Part shown: positions 1 to 16,739 of the stretch, one piece after another
How positions within the stretch are numbered: position 1 is the first letter of the stretch
How the letters are laid out: every line of letters starts with the position of its first letter
Position numbers and translations under genes: made by a program
IMG/VR virus record: IMGVR_UViG_3300047300_000302
Location: 1 to 22,962 of that record
Direction: 5' to 3' (one strand)
DNA length: 22,962 nucleotides
DNA from: a virus
Notes under the pieces: model-generated
Seen by the model: only the letters and a program-made list of their open reading frames with translations
Databases searched by the model: none
What the model was told of the DNA's origin: nothing

Positions 1-1263
1 ACTGTACATAGTGCAGAAGAAGTCTGGAAGATTATCTTTGAAAGTAATCAGCCTTGGACTCTAAGTGCTAACGGCACTATTTTTAAGTACGATATGAAGG
101 GTATTATTCCTGGATTGTTGGAAAGGTGGTATGCAGAAAGAAAAGAACTCCAAGCAAAAAAGAAGACCGCAGAAACTAAGGAAGATGCCGCGTTCTGGGA
201 CAAACGCCAGCTCGTCAAAAAAATTAACCTCAATAGCTTATACGGCGCAATCCTCAATCCAGGGTGCCGTTTCTTCGATCAACGTATTGGGCAGAGCACA
301 ACGCTTACTGGGCGCATCATCGCCAAGCACATGGACGCAACCGTTAATGAGGCAATTACAGGCTCGTATGACCACGTTGGTTCAAGTATTATCTACGGTG
401 ACACAGACTCAGTATACTTTAGTGCGTGGCCGGCGCTTAAAGAAGAAGTAGAAGCAGGACGCATGGAGTGGAACAAAGACATTTGTATCCAAGTCTATGA
501 TAACATTGCTAATATGGTTAATGAAAGCTTCCCAGAGTTTATGGAACGTGCTTGCCACTGTCCACGTGAAATGGGTGCTATTATCAAAGGCGGTCGCGAA
601 CTGATTGCAGAGAAAGGCTTATTCATTAAGAAGAAGCGTTACGCTGTACTGATTTTCGACTTAGAAGGCAAGCGACTTGATGCTGATGGTAAGCCAGGTA
701 AAGTTAAAGCCATGGGTTTGGACTTGAAGCGTTCAGATACTCCTAAGTTTGTGCAGGACTTCCTAAGTGAAATTTTGCTTGATGTGCTAACAGGTGCAGA
801 GCGCGAAGCAGTAATCGATAAGGTGCGTGAGTTTAAGCTTGCGTTCCAAGAACGCCCTGCGTGGGAAAAGGGTACACCTAAGCGTGTAAACAACTTGACC
901 AAGTATACCGCAGAAGAAGCACGGTTAGGTAGAGCCAATATGCCCGGACACGTTCGAGCCGCAATGAATTGGAACAACCTAAAGCGTATGCACGGGGACA
1001 ACTATTCGGCTGCTATCGTTGACGGTATGAAGACTATTGTGTGTAAACTAAAGGATAATCCGCTAGGCTACACATCAGTTGGATACCCCACAGACGAAGC
1101 ACGTATTCCGCAATGGTTTAAGGAACTGCCATTTGACCAAGACCTAATGGAGTCGGGCATCGTGGATCAAAAGGTCGAGAACTTGCTAGGTGTGTTGGAT
1201 TGGAAGATTAGCGAAAGCACAGACACCAAATCAACATTTGACAGTTTGTTTACGTTCGAGTAA
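1..1263 (+). CDS. 43: DNA polymerase, family B (T4 gp43-like), C-terminal part
   Basis: Replicative DNA polymerase of the phage; the 5' end lies outside the window, so about 420 C-terminal residues are visible and the frame is open from base 1. Two family B signatures are clear: motif B around visible residues 70-83 (KKINLNSLYGA) and motif C at about 132-139 (YGDTDSVY), which holds two metal-binding aspartates. The palm and thumb follow. The protein ends with FDSLFTFE (1237-1260), placed like the clamp-binding C-terminal tail of T4 gp43. Nine bases separate it from the next gene, and the sliding clamp lies two genes downstream, as expected for a T4-type replication block. The family is certain; the exact start cannot be seen. 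Confidence 0.96.
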   Translation, partial: TVHSAEEVWKIIFESNQPWTLSANGTIFKYDMKGIIPGLLERWYAERKELQAKKKTAETKEDAAFWDKRQLVKKINLNSLYGAILNPGCRFFDQRIGQSTTLTGRIIAKHMDATVNEAITGSYDHVGSSIIYGDTDSVYFSAWPALKEEVEAGRMEWNKDICIQVYDNIANMVNESFPEFMERACHCPREMGAIIKGGRELIAEKGLFIKKKRYAVLIFDLEGKRLDADGKPGKVKAMGLDLKRSDTPKFVQDFLSEILLDVLTGAEREAVIDKVREFKLAFQERPAWEKGTPKRVNNLTKYTAEEARLGRANMPGHVRAAMNWNNLKRMHGDNYSAAIVDGMKTIVCKLKDNPLGYTSVGYPTDEARIPQWFKELPFDQDLMESGIVDQKVENLLGVLDWKISESTDTKSTFDSLFTFE

Positions 1264-2255: not shown

Positions 2256-2990
2256 ATGCAAGACTATCTAAAAGACATCGTACAACATACACAAGCACTG
2301 GGCTTTATTGACCTAGTTAAGATCATCGGGGACACTAACGAAACTCGCCTCATCGCACTAGCAGAAGACAAAACTGTTGTTGTAGATGCCAAGTTCAAAA
2401 ACCCTGTTCCAGAGTTTATGGGCACATTTGGTATGCCTAACTTGGGCAAGCTAAACACAATCCTTGGTATTCCCGAATACAAGGAAAATGCTAAACTCAG
2501 CATCACCACAAAGAAAGATGCTAACGGCGCTGATATCCCAGATGGTATCCATTTTGAAAACGCCGCAGGTGACTTTAAGAACGACTATCGTTTCATGACC
2601 GCTAACGTTATTAACGATAAGCTAAAGAATCAAAAGATGCGTCCAGTTAAGTGGCACGTTGACATTGTGCCTACAAATCAAAACATTCAACGTTTGCGTT
2701 TCCAAGCTATGGCGAACTCGGAAGAAACAACGTTTACTGCCAAAACAGATAACGGTAACCTAAAGTTCTTCTTCGGTGATCACAGCTCACACGCAGGTAA
2801 CTTTGTTTTCCAAGATTCTGTAAGCGGCACATTAGCAAAGAGCTGGTCGTGGCCAGTTAACGCTTTCATTGCTATTCTAGCATTGCCGGGCGACAAGACA
2901 GTTAAGATTAGCGACGAAGGTGCCGCAATGATTACTGTTGATTCAGGACTTGCTGAATATTCATACATCTTGCCAGCTCAAACCAAGTAA
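2256..2990 (+). CDS. 45: sliding clamp, DNA polymerase processivity factor (T4 gp45-like)
   Basis: A protein of 244 residues (T4 gp45 has 228) with no catalytic motif and a beta-rich pattern of two similar halves, as in PCNA-fold clamps. The segment around residues 50-75 (EFMGTFGMPNLGKLNTILGI) matches the position where T4-type clamps have their FLGILSL-like helix, and the C-terminal strand YSYILPA resembles the end of phage clamps. A trimeric ring around DNA is expected, holding polymerase and other clients, and in T4 also activating late transcription. Context supports the call: it follows the polymerase and has its own strong promoter and a good AGGAG ribosome site 5 bases before ATG. Sequence similarity is modest, as usual for this family. 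Confidence 0.82.
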   Translation: MQDYLKDIVQHTQALGFIDLVKIIGDTNETRLIALAEDKTVVVDAKFKNPVPEFMGTFGMPNLGKLNTILGIPEYKENAKLSITTKKDANGADIPDGIHFENAAGDFKNDYRFMTANVINDKLKNQKMRPVKWHVDIVPTNQNIQRLRFQAMANSEETTFTAKTDNGNLKFFFGDHSSHAGNFVFQDSVSGTLAKSWSWPVNAFIAILALPGDKTVKISDEGAAMITVDSGLAEYSYILPAQTK

Positions 2991-3625
2991 TGCTTGAGCA
3001 CTTAATACCAAGAGGTTATCAACCCCAGGGCGGATTAATTTCGCCCGAGGGAGTATTCTGCTTAAACATTCCCAAGAATGCCAGCACATACATCACTAAC
3101 CTCTTGGTACACAATGGTTGGACGTACAGCAAGTGCGATAACCCAACTATTAAAAAATATATTGTAATCTTGCGTGATCCACTAGAACGTTGGGTCAGTG
3201 GAATGGCTACTTATACTGCATCCTGGATTCTAGGACCAAGTTATGGTAGCGAAGCGTTTAATGATGACTTTAACGATCTAACCGAACGTTTTATATTCGA
3301 TCAAATTGTATTTGACGATCACACTACTCCGCAAGTACAATTCATTAAACAACTAAACACCAGCATACCAACCACGTATTTTGCGTTGAACTACGATTTG
3401 CGTACTAACTTAGAAAATTTTCTAAATACTAAGCTAGAAGTACCAGAGGAAATCAACAGTAACGTAACTGAAAACAATTACGACACAAAAAATATAGCTA
3501 CAAAGATTCAGTTCATTGTCGACCAGAATCCCAACTATAAAGCTCGAGTAATTGATAGGTTCAGCGAAGATTACGAGCTACTACGCAAAATACATTTCTA
3601 CGATTTTTACAATGAGTCAAGATGA
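2990..3625 (+). CDS. sulfotransferase-like protein (Sulfotransfer_2 type)
   Basis: A protein of 211 residues. The motif IPKNAST at 27-33 matches the 5'-phosphosulfate-binding loop of PAPS-dependent sulfotransferases (PKxGST type), and LRDPLERWVSG at 61-71 matches the 3'-phosphate-binding RDPxxRxxS motif. These two motifs in order, at normal spacing for small carbohydrate sulfotransferases, support transfer of sulfate from PAPS to a hydroxyl, usually on a sugar. No membrane segment is visible, so it would act in the cytoplasm. Its ATG overlaps the clamp stop (TAATG), and its end overlaps the next gene by 14 bases, implying translational coupling. The acceptor is unknown; a glycan or tail/capsid decoration is possible. 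Confidence 0.72.
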   Translation: MLEHLIPRGYQPQGGLISPEGVFCLNIPKNASTYITNLLVHNGWTYSKCDNPTIKKYIVILRDPLERWVSGMATYTASWILGPSYGSEAFNDDFNDLTERFIFDQIVFDDHTTPQVQFIKQLNTSIPTTYFALNYDLRTNLENFLNTKLEVPEEINSNVTENNYDTKNIATKIQFIVDQNPNYKARVIDRFSEDYELLRKIHFYDFYNESR

Positions 3626-5159
3626 TTTAACAAGCAAGCAGAAAGACTACGCAGTATTCTTGCCTGCTATCTCCGGCTTTTACGCTACCTTTATCGGAAA
3701 GCAACGTGTTAACAACGACTATGTTGATCCTGCACGTTTCCCGCAAGGTCAGCCTACTAAGCTAACACATATGGACCAGATGGACTGGCTAAATGCACAA
3801 CAAGCACTATTCCCTTACAAGTGGAGTCTATACTCAGGTGGACATGCTAACTTGGACTTAACTAAAGAAGATCCAAGCGAAGACATGGTACGTAAGCGTG
3901 ACCCTAACACTATCATGCTAGGTGATTCTGGTGGATTCCAGATTGCTAAAGGCTTGTGGGAAGGCGATTGGAAAGCCAACTCAGGTTGCCCTAAAGCACA
4001 AAAGAAACGTGAAGCTGTACTAAAGTGGTTAGATAGCATTAGTAACTACGGCATGGGGTTGGATATTCCTACTTGGGTTATCCACGATAAGAAAGCCAGT
4101 GATGCTTGCCAAATTAAAACACTAGACGAAGCTGTTGCGGCAACCAAGTTCAACAACGAGTACTTTATTAAGAACCGCAAGGGCAAAGACAACGGTGGTG
4201 CTAAATTCCTAAACGTGTTGCAAGGTGACAATCACACGTCAGCTGAAGAATGGTATCAAGAAATGAAACAGTTCTGTGATCCTAATGTTTACCCAGATCG
4301 TCACTTTGATGGCTGGGGCATGGGAGGTCAGAACATGTGTGACGTACACTTAATTCTAAAACGTCTAGTAGCACTACGCTATGACAACTTGTTACAAGAG
4401 GGCAAACATGATTGGATGCACTTCTTGGGTACAAGTAAATTAGAGTGGGCAGTTCTCTTAACTGTCATTCAACGAGCAGTGAGAAAATATGTCAATCCTA
4501 GTTTTACTATTTCTTTTGATTGTGCTAGTCCATTCCTTGCAACGGCGAACGGGCAAGTCTATTTTGAAAACGTTTTTCCGCACGATGAAAAGTGGAGCTA
4601 CAGAATGGCACCAAGCGCAGACGACAAAAAGTACGCAACAGACACAAGACCCTGGGCGCAAGGTGTAGTACAAGACGGTATCTATCCACGTTGGCAAGAT
4701 TCGCCTATTAGCGACATGTTGCAGATGCGAGATATTTGTATCTACAAGCCCGGCGACCTAAATAAGATTGGTAAAGAGGGAAAAACGTCTTGGGATAGTT
4801 TCTCGTATGCATTACTAATGGGACACAATGTCTATATGCATATCACTGCTGTACAAGAAGCTAACCGTCGTTTTGATGCCGGCGAACATCCTGCTATGAT
4901 GCGTTACTCTGCTCCTAGTGCCGATTACTTTGAAGATATTGTAGAGCGGATCTTTGCCGCACCCACACGTGAAGAAGCAGAAGCTATCATTGAGCAGTAC
5001 GATAGCTACTGGATGGAAATCGTTGGAACTCGTGGCTTTAAGGGCAAGAAAGCCAAGAATTCGAACACTATGTTTAATTCATTGTTCAGTGTCGAAGAGG
5101 AAGAAGACGACACAGACCTTGACACAACCGCGTTAGATGATTTGGAGAACAACGCATGA
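3612..5159 (+). CDS. dpdA: DpdA-like DNA guanine transglycosylase (tRNA-guanine transglycosylase superfamily)
   Basis: A protein of 515 residues. Tandem TGT-family landmarks appear in order: LGDSGGFQ at 103-110 (base-binding/catalytic Asp), GLDIPTW at 149-155 in place of the tRNA enzyme's FDEC, VLQG at 202-205, GWGMGG at 234-239, and ISFDCASPF at 300-308, whose Asp303 matches the nucleophile of MFDC in tRNA enzymes. The CxCxxC zinc site of tRNA TGTs is not recognisable; only one Cys and a later GHN remain. This divergence, the phage context and folE/queD/queE downstream point to exchange of guanine in DNA for a 7-deazaguanine (DpdA family) rather than tRNA modification. Residues 488-495 (FNSLFSVE) resemble the polymerase C-terminal tail, followed by an acidic end. 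The ATG at 3612 was chosen; an upstream TTG at 3552 would deepen the overlap. Confidence 0.82.
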   Translation: MSQDDLTSKQKDYAVFLPAISGFYATFIGKQRVNNDYVDPARFPQGQPTKLTHMDQMDWLNAQQALFPYKWSLYSGGHANLDLTKEDPSEDMVRKRDPNTIMLGDSGGFQIAKGLWEGDWKANSGCPKAQKKREAVLKWLDSISNYGMGLDIPTWVIHDKKASDACQIKTLDEAVAATKFNNEYFIKNRKGKDNGGAKFLNVLQGDNHTSAEEWYQEMKQFCDPNVYPDRHFDGWGMGGQNMCDVHLILKRLVALRYDNLLQEGKHDWMHFLGTSKLEWAVLLTVIQRAVRKYVNPSFTISFDCASPFLATANGQVYFENVFPHDEKWSYRMAPSADDKKYATDTRPWAQGVVQDGIYPRWQDSPISDMLQMRDICIYKPGDLNKIGKEGKTSWDSFSYALLMGHNVYMHITAVQEANRRFDAGEHPAMMRYSAPSADYFEDIVERIFAAPTREEAEAIIEQYDSYWMEIVGTRGFKGKKAKNSNTMFNSLFSVEEEEDDTDLDTTALDDLENNA

Positions 5160-12147: not shown

Positions 12148-12177
12148 TGGACAAACCTTATGGATGAATTTGTTGAG

Positions 12178-12185
12178 TATTTATT
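12178..12185 (-). promoter_or_regulatory. possible late promoter for the minus-strand ligase
   Basis: On the minus strand this reads AATAAATA followed by CTC, matching the T4 late promoter core TATAAATA at 7 of 8 positions. It lies about 31 bases before the ligase ATG, leaving room for an AAGG ribosome site. A match of this quality is expected by chance several times in a window this size, so position is the main support. Confidence 0.4.
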
Positions 12186-12212
12186 GACATGTAGGTCTAA
12201 ATACTATACAAT
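12184..12212 (+). promoter_or_regulatory. sigma70-type promoter for folE, with embedded GGTCTAAATAC element
   Basis: TTGACA (12184-12189), 17 bases, then TACAAT (12207-12212): a near-consensus promoter in the 105-base divergent gap. The spacer holds GGTCTAAATAC (12194-12204), as in the clamp promoter. Predicted start of transcription is near 12219, one base before an in-frame ATG at 12220. The gap 12148-12252 also carries the minus-strand promoter candidate and the folE ribosome site; nothing else was seen in it. Confidence 0.75.
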
Positions 12213-12241
12213 CAACAAAATGACATCCACGTCATTAACTC

Positions 12242-12246
12242 GGAGA
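12242..12246 (+). promoter_or_regulatory. ribosome binding site supporting a TTG start for folE
   Basis: GGAGA is followed after 6 bases by an in-frame TTG at 12253, which is proper spacing for initiation. It decides between this start and the ATG at 12220, which has no ribosome site but would be used on a leaderless transcript. Confidence 0.6.
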
Positions 12247-12252
12247 AATAAA

Positions 12253-12999
12253 TTGACAGATAAAAAAGAAACAGGATTAGACGCCATGGCAGGCGACGGC
12301 GGCTACGGACTAGCTAAAACGTGCGATCACCTTCGCTTTAAATTTAAACGTGACGGAAAACGTTTTTGGGCAGGAGATAACGTCAGTGAGTACATCACTG
12401 AAGAAATGAAAGAGCAACTAATTGACGAAGCCACAACAGCGTTTGAGGGTGTACTAGACGCACTACTAATTGATAGAGAAAATGATCCGAACTCAAAAGG
12501 CACAGCTCGCCGTCTTGCAAAAATGTACTACAACGAAATCATGGCGGGCCGATACGAACCTACGCCTAATGCGACAGCTTTTCCGAATGATACAGAAGGC
12601 AAGTACGAAGGGATGTTGGTTGTGCGTAGCGAGCTTAAGAGCATGTGTAGCCATCACCACCAACCTGTTTCGGGCGTTGCGTATATCGGAATCATTGCTG
12701 GTCCGAAACTTATTGGTCTTAGTAAATACACCCGGATTGCACAGTGGTGTGCCCGCCGCGGAACACTTCAGGAAGAACTCTGTATGGACATTGCTCGTGA
12801 AATCGAATTCGCCACTGGTTCAAAAGATGTTGCCGTTTATATTCAAGCTACCCACGGATGTTGTGAGAATCGCGGCATTATGGCACATTCTAGCCTCACA
12901 CAAACTACGGTTCTAAAGGGTGCATTCCAAACGGATCAAAGTACTAAGAAAGAGTTCTTTGATAACATTAAGCTACAACAGGAATTCGCCCCTCGTTGA
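12253..12999 (+). CDS. folE: GTP cyclohydrolase I
   Basis: A 248-residue enzyme from the TTG start (a leaderless ATG at 12220 would add 11 residues). Converts GTP to 7,8-dihydroneopterin triphosphate and formate, the first step of folate and of 7-deazaguanine synthesis. Zinc ligands are recognisable: C132 and H135 in CSHH (family CEHH), and C203 in HGC. Other family blocks: ARRLAKMY near 85-92, IGLSKYTRIAQWCARRGTLQEEL at 154-176, and the C-terminal THGCCENRGIMAHSS for HxCMxxRGV. The first ~50 residues, rich in Gly and charged, exceed the core. In this window it feeds QueD and QueE; a link to the DpdA-like protein makes a DNA-modification role more likely than folate supply. Confidence 0.92.
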   Translation: MTDKKETGLDAMAGDGGYGLAKTCDHLRFKFKRDGKRFWAGDNVSEYITEEMKEQLIDEATTAFEGVLDALLIDRENDPNSKGTARRLAKMYYNEIMAGRYEPTPNATAFPNDTEGKYEGMLVVRSELKSMCSHHHQPVSGVAYIGIIAGPKLIGLSKYTRIAQWCARRGTLQEELCMDIAREIEFATGSKDVAVYIQATHGCCENRGIMAHSSLTQTTVLKGAFQTDQSTKKEFFDNIKLQQEFAPR

Positions 13000-14721: not shown

Positions 14722-15225
14722 ATGACCTTACCAACAGTACAATACAAGTACACAAGCACAAAAGAATACCACAACGCCTTCCCTGTTGCATACAGACAAT
14801 GGCGTGCTGATAGCCACTGTAACCTAATTCATGGCTACGCATTTAGCATGAAGTTCTATTTTGGAACCAATGACCTAGATGTACGCAACTGGGCCGCTGA
14901 CTACGGCGGGCTTAAAGAACTTAAAAAGCAATTAGAAGATCAATTTGACCATACACTTATTGTTGCACAAGATGATCCAGAAATGGCGACATTTAAATTG
15001 TTACAAGAGAAGAAAATGGCCAAGATTGTTGTGTTACCAGCACTAGGTTGCGAAGCACTCTCTGATATGCTTTACAAGTATGTTAATGGCGTTTACATTC
15101 CTGAAATGTGGGGCCCAGGCGAAGCAGAACGTCTGTGGTGCTATCGTGTAGAAGTTAGAGAAACACAAAGCAACATGGCATACCGCGAAGGACATCGTGA
15201 ATGGAACGAGGATCTGCTTGCGTAA
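14722..15225 (+). CDS. queD: 6-carboxy-5,6,7,8-tetrahydropterin synthase-like protein
   Basis: Converts dihydroneopterin triphosphate to 6-carboxytetrahydropterin in 7-deazaguanine synthesis. 167 residues (E. coli QueD 121). AYRQWRADSHCNLIHGYAF (23-41) aligns with the QueD start AAHRLP...CGRLHGHSF: the catalytic Cys (C33) and the first His of HGH (H37) are kept, but the family's first zinc His and the last His of HGH are tyrosines here (Y24, Y39). D76-H77 (FDHT, for LDHH) and E147 (VRET, for VKET) keep the other catalytic residues. DYGGLKELKKQLEDQFDH fits the DFAELK...LDH block. H32 next to the cysteine could replace a metal ligand. Placed between folE and queE, which supports the call. Confidence 0.82.
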   Translation: MTLPTVQYKYTSTKEYHNAFPVAYRQWRADSHCNLIHGYAFSMKFYFGTNDLDVRNWAADYGGLKELKKQLEDQFDHTLIVAQDDPEMATFKLLQEKKMAKIVVLPALGCEALSDMLYKYVNGVYIPEMWGPGEAERLWCYRVEVRETQSNMAYREGHREWNEDLLA

Positions 15226-15601: not shown

Positions 15602-15892
15602 ATGAACGCAAAAGAAAACGAAATCCTGCTTATTACCCAAGAGGAATGTGCAGAAGTGACACAAGCTATCAGCAAGTGTTATCGCTTTGGTTTAGATAAC
15701 TTTAAGCCAGGCAAACCCAAAACAAACAGAGAACACTTAGCAGAAGAACTAGGCGACTTACAAGCAATGATTGACTTGTGTGTTGTTAGCGGTCTAGTTA
15801 GCAAGGAAGATCTTGATCGTGCAAGCGATAATAAGATTGCAAAACTAAAGGTTTGGTCGGACATTTTTAAAGAAGAAACTAATGAAAATTAA
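15602..15892 (+). CDS. MazG-like nucleotide pyrophosphohydrolase
   Basis: A 96-residue all-alpha NTP pyrophosphatase. The two metal-binding helices are visible: ITQEECAEVTQAISK with E15/E18, and EELGDLQAMIDL with E49/D52, the ExxE...ExxD arrangement of MazG/dUTPase-type proteins. Single-domain length fits phage MazG. Hydrolyses (d)NTPs, or in other systems alarmones, to the monophosphate. Overlaps queE by 11 bases, so it is translated with it; it may shape nucleotide pools for the altered DNA or clear unwanted nucleotides. Specific substrate not determinable. Confidence 0.82.
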   Translation: MNAKENEILLITQEECAEVTQAISKCYRFGLDNFKPGKPKTNREHLAEELGDLQAMIDLCVVSGLVSKEDLDRASDNKIAKLKVWSDIFKEETNEN

Positions 15893-16739
15893 AGTAAGTG
15901 AACTATTCTATTCAGCACAGGGCGAAGGCCGCTTTGTTGGTGTGCCGTCAGTTTTCCTCCGCACATTCGGGTGCAATTTTACTTGCTCCGGTTTTGGTTG
16001 TGCGCCAGGTGAAAAGAGTACGGAAGCAGACAAAGTGGCAGAAAACATCCACTTGTATAAAGACTTTCTTGAACTCCCACTCGTTAATACCGGTTGTGAC
16101 AGTTACGCTTCCTGGCACCCGGCCTTTAAGGATCTCTCTCCCACTAAAGAAACCTCACAGTTGGTGGAAGACATACTGGCATTAACTCCCAACCACAAGT
16201 GGGTACAAGACAACGGCAATGATGTACATCTTGTTATTACAGGTGGCGAACCATTGCTAGGCTGGCAACGTGCTTATCAAGAGCTATTAGAGCATCCACG
16301 CATGGCAGACTTACGTAACATTACATTTGAAACAAATGGTACCCAAACTCTGCAAAGCAAGTTTATTGATTACTTGTTAGACTGGAGCGAGATTGCTGGC
16401 AATGAAATTACATTCTCTGTAAGCCCTAAGCTTAGTGCAAGTGGCGAAGCATGGGATGAAGCTATCCGTCCAGAGATTGTGCGTATGTATCAAGACTATG
16501 GCTTTACTTACTTGAAGTTTGTTGTGGAAACAGAACAGCACTTTGCAGAAGTAGACAAGGCTGTGGGACAGTATCGTGCTCAAGGATTCAATGGCCCTGT
16601 GTACGTAATGCCACAAGGTGGTGTTGTTACTCCTTATGCACAGAATCGTGTTCGTGTTGCTGATTGGGCATTAACTAAAGGCTATAACTATAGCCCGCGT
16701 TTACACGTTGACTTGTGGGGCAACGGCTGGGGCAAATGA
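15882..16739 (+). CDS. queE: 7-carboxy-7-deazaguanine synthase (radical SAM)
   Basis: A 285-residue radical SAM enzyme converting 6-carboxytetrahydropterin to 7-carboxy-7-deazaguanine. Start region SELFYSAQGEGRFVGVPSVFLRTFGCNFTC is the QueE signature. Cluster cysteines C31 and C35 are spaced CX3C, but the third is not at the usual CX3CX2C position: candidates are C40 (SGFGC) and C72 (NTGCDSYASW). The SAM-binding GGEPLLGWQ lies at 121-129 and FETNGTQ follows. The insert between the first cysteines and GGEP is longer than in E. coli QueE (223 residues). Overlaps MazG upstream and the next gene downstream (ATGA). Confidence 0.9.
   Translation: MKIKVSELFYSAQGEGRFVGVPSVFLRTFGCNFTCSGFGCAPGEKSTEADKVAENIHLYKDFLELPLVNTGCDSYASWHPAFKDLSPTKETSQLVEDILALTPNHKWVQDNGNDVHLVITGGEPLLGWQRAYQELLEHPRMADLRNITFETNGTQTLQSKFIDYLLDWSEIAGNEITFSVSPKLSASGEAWDEAIRPEIVRMYQDYGFTYLKFVVETEQHFAEVDKAVGQYRAQGFNGPVYVMPQGGVVTPYAQNRVRVADWALTKGYNYSPRLHVDLWGNGWGK

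Follow-up and report, generated by a model that had tools for sequence, protein, structure and literature searches.

A phage-encoded DpdA-like DNA guanine transglycosylase carries a putative sliding-clamp docking peptide resembling the C-terminus of the viral DNA polymerase

Gene organization of the locus

The window, i.e. the whole stretch of viral DNA that was analysed, comprises positions 1 to 22,962, and its start cuts the DNA polymerase gene, of which only the C-terminal part is present. Contigs carrying close relatives reach 354 kb, and the phage is regarded as a giant (jumbo) one. From left to right, the end of the polymerase gene is followed by genes for a protein with a methyltransferase domain, a sliding clamp, a protein with weak likeness to sulfotransferases and the DpdA-like enzyme, and then by folE, a phosphoribosyltransferase gene, queD and a queE-like gene. 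The clamp gene (2256-2990) thus lies between the genes of the polymerase and the DpdA-like protein, as had been stated in a preliminary description of this DNA. The features of the locus are:

1..1263, plus strand: family B DNA polymerase, C-terminal 420 aa (Pfam DNA_pol_B, E 1.7e-24; phrog_262, E 2.2e-83)
1237..1260, plus strand: C-terminal tail of the polymerase, FDSLFTFE, used as reference clamp peptide
2256..2990, plus strand: PCNA-type sliding clamp, 244 aa, proposed docking partner (AlphaFold2 model and fold search)
3612..5159, plus strand: DpdA-like putative DNA guanine transglycosylase, 515 aa (TGT fold; DSGGFQ and ISFDCASPF motifs)
5028..5120, plus strand: predicted disordered segment of the DpdA-like protein, residues 473-503, which holds the peptide (pLDDT <50)
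5073..5096, plus strand: putative clamp-docking peptide FNSLFSVE, residues 488-495 of the DpdA-like protein, conserved; core F-x-x-L-F at 5073-5087
5130..5147, plus strand: second, semi-conserved tail element ALDDLE, residues 507-512 (L508 75%, L511 74% and E512 61% in 57 sequences)
12160..12999, plus strand: FolE (GTP cyclohydrolase I), 7-deazaguanine pathway (Pfam, E 6.1e-39)
14722..15225, plus strand: QueD-like protein of the PTPS family (Pfam, E 8.8e-15)
15882..16739, plus strand: QueE-like radical SAM protein (Pfam Radical_SAM, E 0.0013, below the curated cut-off)

With folE, queD and the queE-like gene, the window encodes the 7-deazaguanine pathway components that are expected to accompany a DpdA. 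Likewise, the PA5oct-like phage PAC2 has a gene annotated as 7-carboxy-7-deazaguanine synthase near its dpdA, and a 7-deazaguanine system has also been noted for PA5oct itself (PMC7824862).

Several further observations were made at this and related loci. The genes for the methyltransferase-domain protein (1272-2204) and the sulfotransferase-like protein (2990-3625), located between those of polymerase, clamp and DpdA, diverge fast, and no recognisable copy of the latter was seen in several relatives. By its annotation, the gene that divides the polymerase gene of PAC2 into two parts (L081 1605-6831) codes for a Hef-like homing endonuclease. QueD ends with REGHREWNEDLFA or a similar sequence in three jumbo phages (G001 205759-206313, G003 86267-86767, G004 162895-163392) and with NEDLLA in the window (15193-15222); this end could be a clamp-like tail or just C-terminal conservation. 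In distant homologues of the DpdA-like protein, KLxxLE is found in place of the tail element ALDxLE.

Identity of the DpdA-like enzyme and of the clamp

The DpdA-like protein of the window had no match in the Pfam, PHROGs and NCBIfam model libraries, and the sole match of its profile to PDB sequences was judged to be due to chance; its identity therefore rests on fold and motifs. An AlphaFold2 model, based on an alignment of 57 sequences, reached a pLDDT of 90 and displayed the (beta/alpha)8 fold of tRNA-guanine transglycosylases (TGT; Foldseek match to 3bl3 with E 7.5e-8; 2ash with Z 18.8 over 306 residues). The aspartates D105 (in DSGGFQ) and D303 (in ISFDCASPF) are invariant in the 57 sequences; from knowledge of the family we take them to be the catalytic aspartates of the TGT enzymes, with the nucleophile in ISFDxxSP. 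The curated DpdA model NF041059 gave no match to the window protein. As the DpdA of phage 9g itself scored far below the cut-off, the reach of this model is bacterial DpdA, and the phage families are not defined by it. Only weak similarity was seen between the window family and the DpdA2 of phage nt-1. The window enzyme is hence described here as a putative DpdA-type DNA guanine transglycosylase, predicted from its fold to insert a 7-deazaguanine into DNA.

For the clamp, the AlphaFold2 model (pLDDT 94.1) matched the PCNA fold (PDB PCNA, E 3.9e-11; VIA, Z 18.1, 225 residues, rmsd 3.4), and the gene at the equivalent place in PAC2 is annotated as PCNA. When the clamp profile was compared with PDB sequences, ribosomal proteins L24/L26 came up (best E 0.0015); these were regarded as chance matches, the identity having been settled by the fold search. 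A phage-encoded clamp of the matching, PCNA-like type is thus present in the window.

A conserved peptide in the disordered tail of the enzyme

The preliminary description had proposed that the enzyme carries a copy of the polymerase's clamp-docking tail. FNSLFSVE is indeed located at residues 488-495 (5073-5096), 20 residues before the end of the protein, and shares five of its eight positions with the polymerase end FDSLFTFE. The tail, which had been called probably disordered, has a pLDDT below 50 for residues 473-503 in the AlphaFold2 model, so that the motif is placed outside the folded core.

About 200 DpdA homologues were read, of which 117 remained at less than 90% identity (nr90) and 57 below approximately 80% identity. 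Of the 117 nr90 homologues, 80 have the pattern F..LF in their C-terminal 60 residues, compared with a mean of 1.7 and a maximum of 6 in 200 shufflings, and it did not occur elsewhere in any of these proteins. The pattern usually starts 25-40 residues before the C-terminal end. In the 57 divergent sequences F492 is conserved to 95%, L491 to 81% and F488 to 72%, and the flanks are far less conserved, with means of 43% for residues 470-487 and 36% for residues 496-515. Several synonymous codons are in use for the Phe and Leu residues of the peptide, so selection acts at the level of the protein. In a few homologues the peptide is weakened, as in L023 (FNRLVEF), L210 (YNKLMIV) and L111/L246 (F..HF). 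Taking all related or similar phage enzymes together, nearly all of the approximately 270 examined have such a peptide. Single queries with the PA5oct-type DpdA or that of Vibrio phage 2.275.O matched no viral contigs, whereas an alignment query did find them.

The possibility that the resemblance arose by chance in a low-complexity acidic tail may be judged at this point. A mere 8 residues were compared initially and the tail is compositionally simple; however, the shuffling, codon and conservation results, together with the family of 76 9g-type sequences described below, speak against it. Chance is refuted by the conservation over about 200 homologues, and we reject it as having a negligible probability.

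Likeness to the cognate polymerase and relocation of the motif

In the homologous loci that were read, the polymerase ends with an [LF]F peptide of the FDSLFTFE kind, and the short hydrophobic-acidic peptide of the DpdA resembles that of the polymerase of the same phage. In L059 the polymerase ends with FTSLFSFE and the DpdA contains FNALFSFE; in PAC2, in which the DpdA is only 32% identical, the polymerase terminus HFDSLFGW corresponds to SFNSLFDVD; in Vibrio phage 2.275.O both proteins end with the peptide, NNTDLFDW in the polymerase and NNNDLFGW in the DpdA, as they do in L172/L174 (FFEF and NEFFEF). Covariation of FF and LF between the two proteins was discarded as proof, since it comprises two independent events, is not significant and is contradicted by L014, where the polymerase has FDSFF and the DpdA FNQLF. 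The T4 tails, read as a calibration, end with SLDFLFG (gp43) and SLDFLYEAND (gp55).

The position of the motif in the DpdA tail is not fixed. Nine of the 14 sequences without the inner motif have a motif at the very C-terminus instead (for instance VLDNNLFGE, VLNPELFGE, ILNPDLFEV or VDLDNPLFEF), compared with 3 of the 129 sequences with the inner motif (Fisher p 7e-9, ignoring kinship). A tree built for the core of the enzyme gives at least 6 changes of position; this count is preferred to the Fisher value, and it was taken from a quick tree with several open forks and unsure long branches (L083). Because the position shifts between lineages, a convergent short linear motif describes the peptide better than a copy of the polymerase tail; the resemblance itself, as claimed in the preliminary description, stands.

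Within whole proteomes the motif is rare. In three jumbo-phage contigs of 331-354 kb, F..[LF]F near the C-terminus was present in 7-10 of the 432-508 predicted proteins, and its retention in an acidic tail was confined to two ortholog groups, those of the polymerase and the DpdA. In the three other ortholog groups listed it occurs in conserved contexts that appear folded or membrane-like.

The 9g-type DpdA family

Profile comparison revealed no significant similarity between the 9g-type DpdAs and the window family, and homology of the two families beyond the shared TGT fold was therefore not adopted. Among 76 9g-type DpdAs with less than 90% identity, 69 end with Qx(1-2)[LF]F, typically QIGLF, QMGLF or QELF, and all 76 have [LIMF]F at most 14 residues from the end or, in the case of L385, just inside it. 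The loci showing these beta-clamp-type ends are L305 (3007-3960), L313-L322 and L329-L408, and only two non-DpdA frames with such an end were present among 1191 plus-strand open frames of the 9g-type loci. The published bacterial beta-clamp motif is Q-aliphatic-x-[LM]-[FL] (PMC11139829); its strict consensus was found in 22 of the 76 tails (0.7 in shuffled tails) and a relaxed consensus in 67 (4.8 in shuffled tails). The distant DpdAs of Dp-1 and R5C end with RQRRLF and AQVSLF, respectively. The genes of this family are ordered folE-dpdA-clamp-polymerase, 74 of the 76 loci have a clamp homologue, and the clamps of 9g (E 1e-5) and PSTCR7 (E 9e-9) matched the dnaN model, both below the curated cut-off. 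The strict beta-clamp motif was present in none of 197 jumbo-phage DpdAs and F..LF in none of the 76 9g-type DpdAs; the peptide thus follows the type of the clamp.

DpdAs without the peptide and modification levels

No C-terminal clamp-type peptide was present in the DpdA2 of nt-1 or in the DpdAs of mycobacteriophages, a Microbacterium phage and a Cellulophaga phage that were read. Where such DpdAs come from mycobacteriophages or the Cellulophaga phage, they adjoin genes with a ParB-like nuclease domain and no clamp gene (L324 1-1574, L325 202-2050, L326 2393-3567). The DpdA of Tinciduntsolum, a close relative of Rosebush, lacks the motif, and in Rosebush approximately 28% of G is modified (PMC6884629); clamp docking is thus no general requirement for a high level of modification. 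In coliphage CAjan, for which a dpdA-deletion mutant exists, approximately 32% of dG is modified (PMC6884629).

Proposed mechanism and alternative explanations

From these sequence patterns we consider it very probable that the PCNA-type sliding clamp encoded by the phage has the DpdA-like enzyme among its clients. This docking had been proposed in the preliminary description, together with conservation of the motif and its location outside the folded core as checks; both came out in its favour, and the relocation after loss, the agreement between DpdA and polymerase tails in remote phages and the beta-clamp-type peptides of the 9g-type family add to the case. The C-terminal tail of the enzyme would serve as a flexible tether whose hydrophobic-acidic peptide FNSLFSVE would enter the clamp pocket that also receives FDSLFTFE, the end of the polymerase. 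For a PCNA-type ring, a trimer offering three sites is expected; polymerase and transglycosylase could therefore occupy one ring together or alternate on it. In this way the enzyme would be held on duplex DNA behind the polymerase, where it would exchange guanine for the 7-deazaguanine base made by FolE, QueD, QueE and other proteins encoded nearby. That enzyme and clamp bind physically, that the pocket is shared and that the exchange is timed at the fork is what we infer from the evidence given above; phage enzymes that keep the peptide very probably travel with the replication machinery.

A link in vivo between base exchange and DNA just synthesized at the fork is a separate matter, and we regard it as plausible. 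Docking could also be real and the base exchange nevertheless be untied to new DNA, if docking served only to raise the local concentration of the enzyme on phage DNA, or to control how other clients such as polymerase, repair and transcription reach the ring. The alpha-glucosyltransferase of T4 binds gp45 (Sommer 2004, confirmed in PMC13216743), yet the share of modification in vivo is mostly set by its expression level and not by gp45 binding (PMC13216743), so docking need not mean fork-coupled modification; moreover, T4 gp45 also serves late transcription (PMC2988020), and a high level of modification is possible when the peptide is absent, as in the case of Rosebush. The location of dpdA beside the clamp and polymerase genes in both jumbo and 9g-type phages favours a role in replication without proving it, and we consider the uncoupled alternative possible but rather unlikely. 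A further alternative is that the partner of the peptide is not the clamp but some other protein, or a second copy of the enzyme in a dimer, the likeness to the polymerase tail then being convergent. Motifs that are short and hydrophobic serve many purposes, and the second conserved tail element ALDxLE may bind something else; however, the likeness to the polymerase tail recurs in distant phages, the peptide changes place within the tail, and the 9g-type family has a peptide of the beta-clamp type beside a beta-type clamp, a match with the clamp type that self-contact would not produce. Binding to a non-clamp partner is accordingly seen as very improbable.

Clamp docking remains the preferred reading, and a wider one is suggested by the two families together. 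We lean, with some reserve, towards the view that phage DNA guanine transglycosylases are replisome components, at least two DpdA lineages of no detectable sequence similarity carrying peptides matched to their clamps (the polymerase-tail type on PCNA-type clamps, the beta-clamp type on dnaN-type clamps) and acting on new duplex DNA. This bears on how up to a third of the guanines can be exchanged before restriction enzymes cut: if the reading is correct, the clamp tether would bring the enzyme directly to newly formed duplex DNA. Additionally, the tail peptide can be used as a signature in sequence data to tell clamp-linked DpdAs from DpdAs that lack it.

Comparison with known systems

A DNA-modifying enzyme that is tethered to the PCNA ring behind the fork is known from eukaryotes in DNMT1, which maintains methylation through its PIP box and is unrelated to DpdA. 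In phages, the proven gp45 ligands of T4 are the tails of gp43 and gp55, which are interchangeable and carried on flexible linkers (PMC2988020). As proposed for the DpdA, the T4 clients gp43, gp55 and gp33 of one clamp share a hydrophobic-acidic C-terminal peptide on a flexible linker; in contrast to it, they are the polymerase and late transcription factors and not DNA-modifying enzymes. The bacterial beta-clamp motif is comparable to the ends of the 9g-type enzymes beside their phage beta-type clamp, whereas the window DpdA has F-x-x-L-F and a PCNA-type clamp.

A TGT fold, together with genes of the 7-deazaguanine pathway in one phage, is common to the window and to the DpdA and DpdA2 proteins of Hutinet 2019; the window family differs in having no match among the DpdA library models, and a clamp is unmentioned in that paper (PMC6884629). 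No description of clamp docking by a DpdA was found in the open-access literature, outside which most subscription papers lie. The statement in the preliminary description that such coupling had not been described therefore holds for DpdA in the open literature, but it left unnamed the binding of T4 alpha-glucosyltransferase to gp45, which is the nearest precedent for a clamp-bound DNA-modifying enzyme. As proposed for the DpdA, the alpha-glucosyltransferase is a phage DNA-modifying enzyme on the phage's own clamp, and modification alongside replication has been proposed for it. Unlike the DpdA, it glucosylates hydroxymethylcytosine, and a gp43-like tail was looked for at its C-terminus and not seen. 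The idea of a clamp-bound DNA-modifying enzyme was thus already known from T4, whereas its extension to a DNA base-exchange enzyme, and to two DpdA families, is apparently new.
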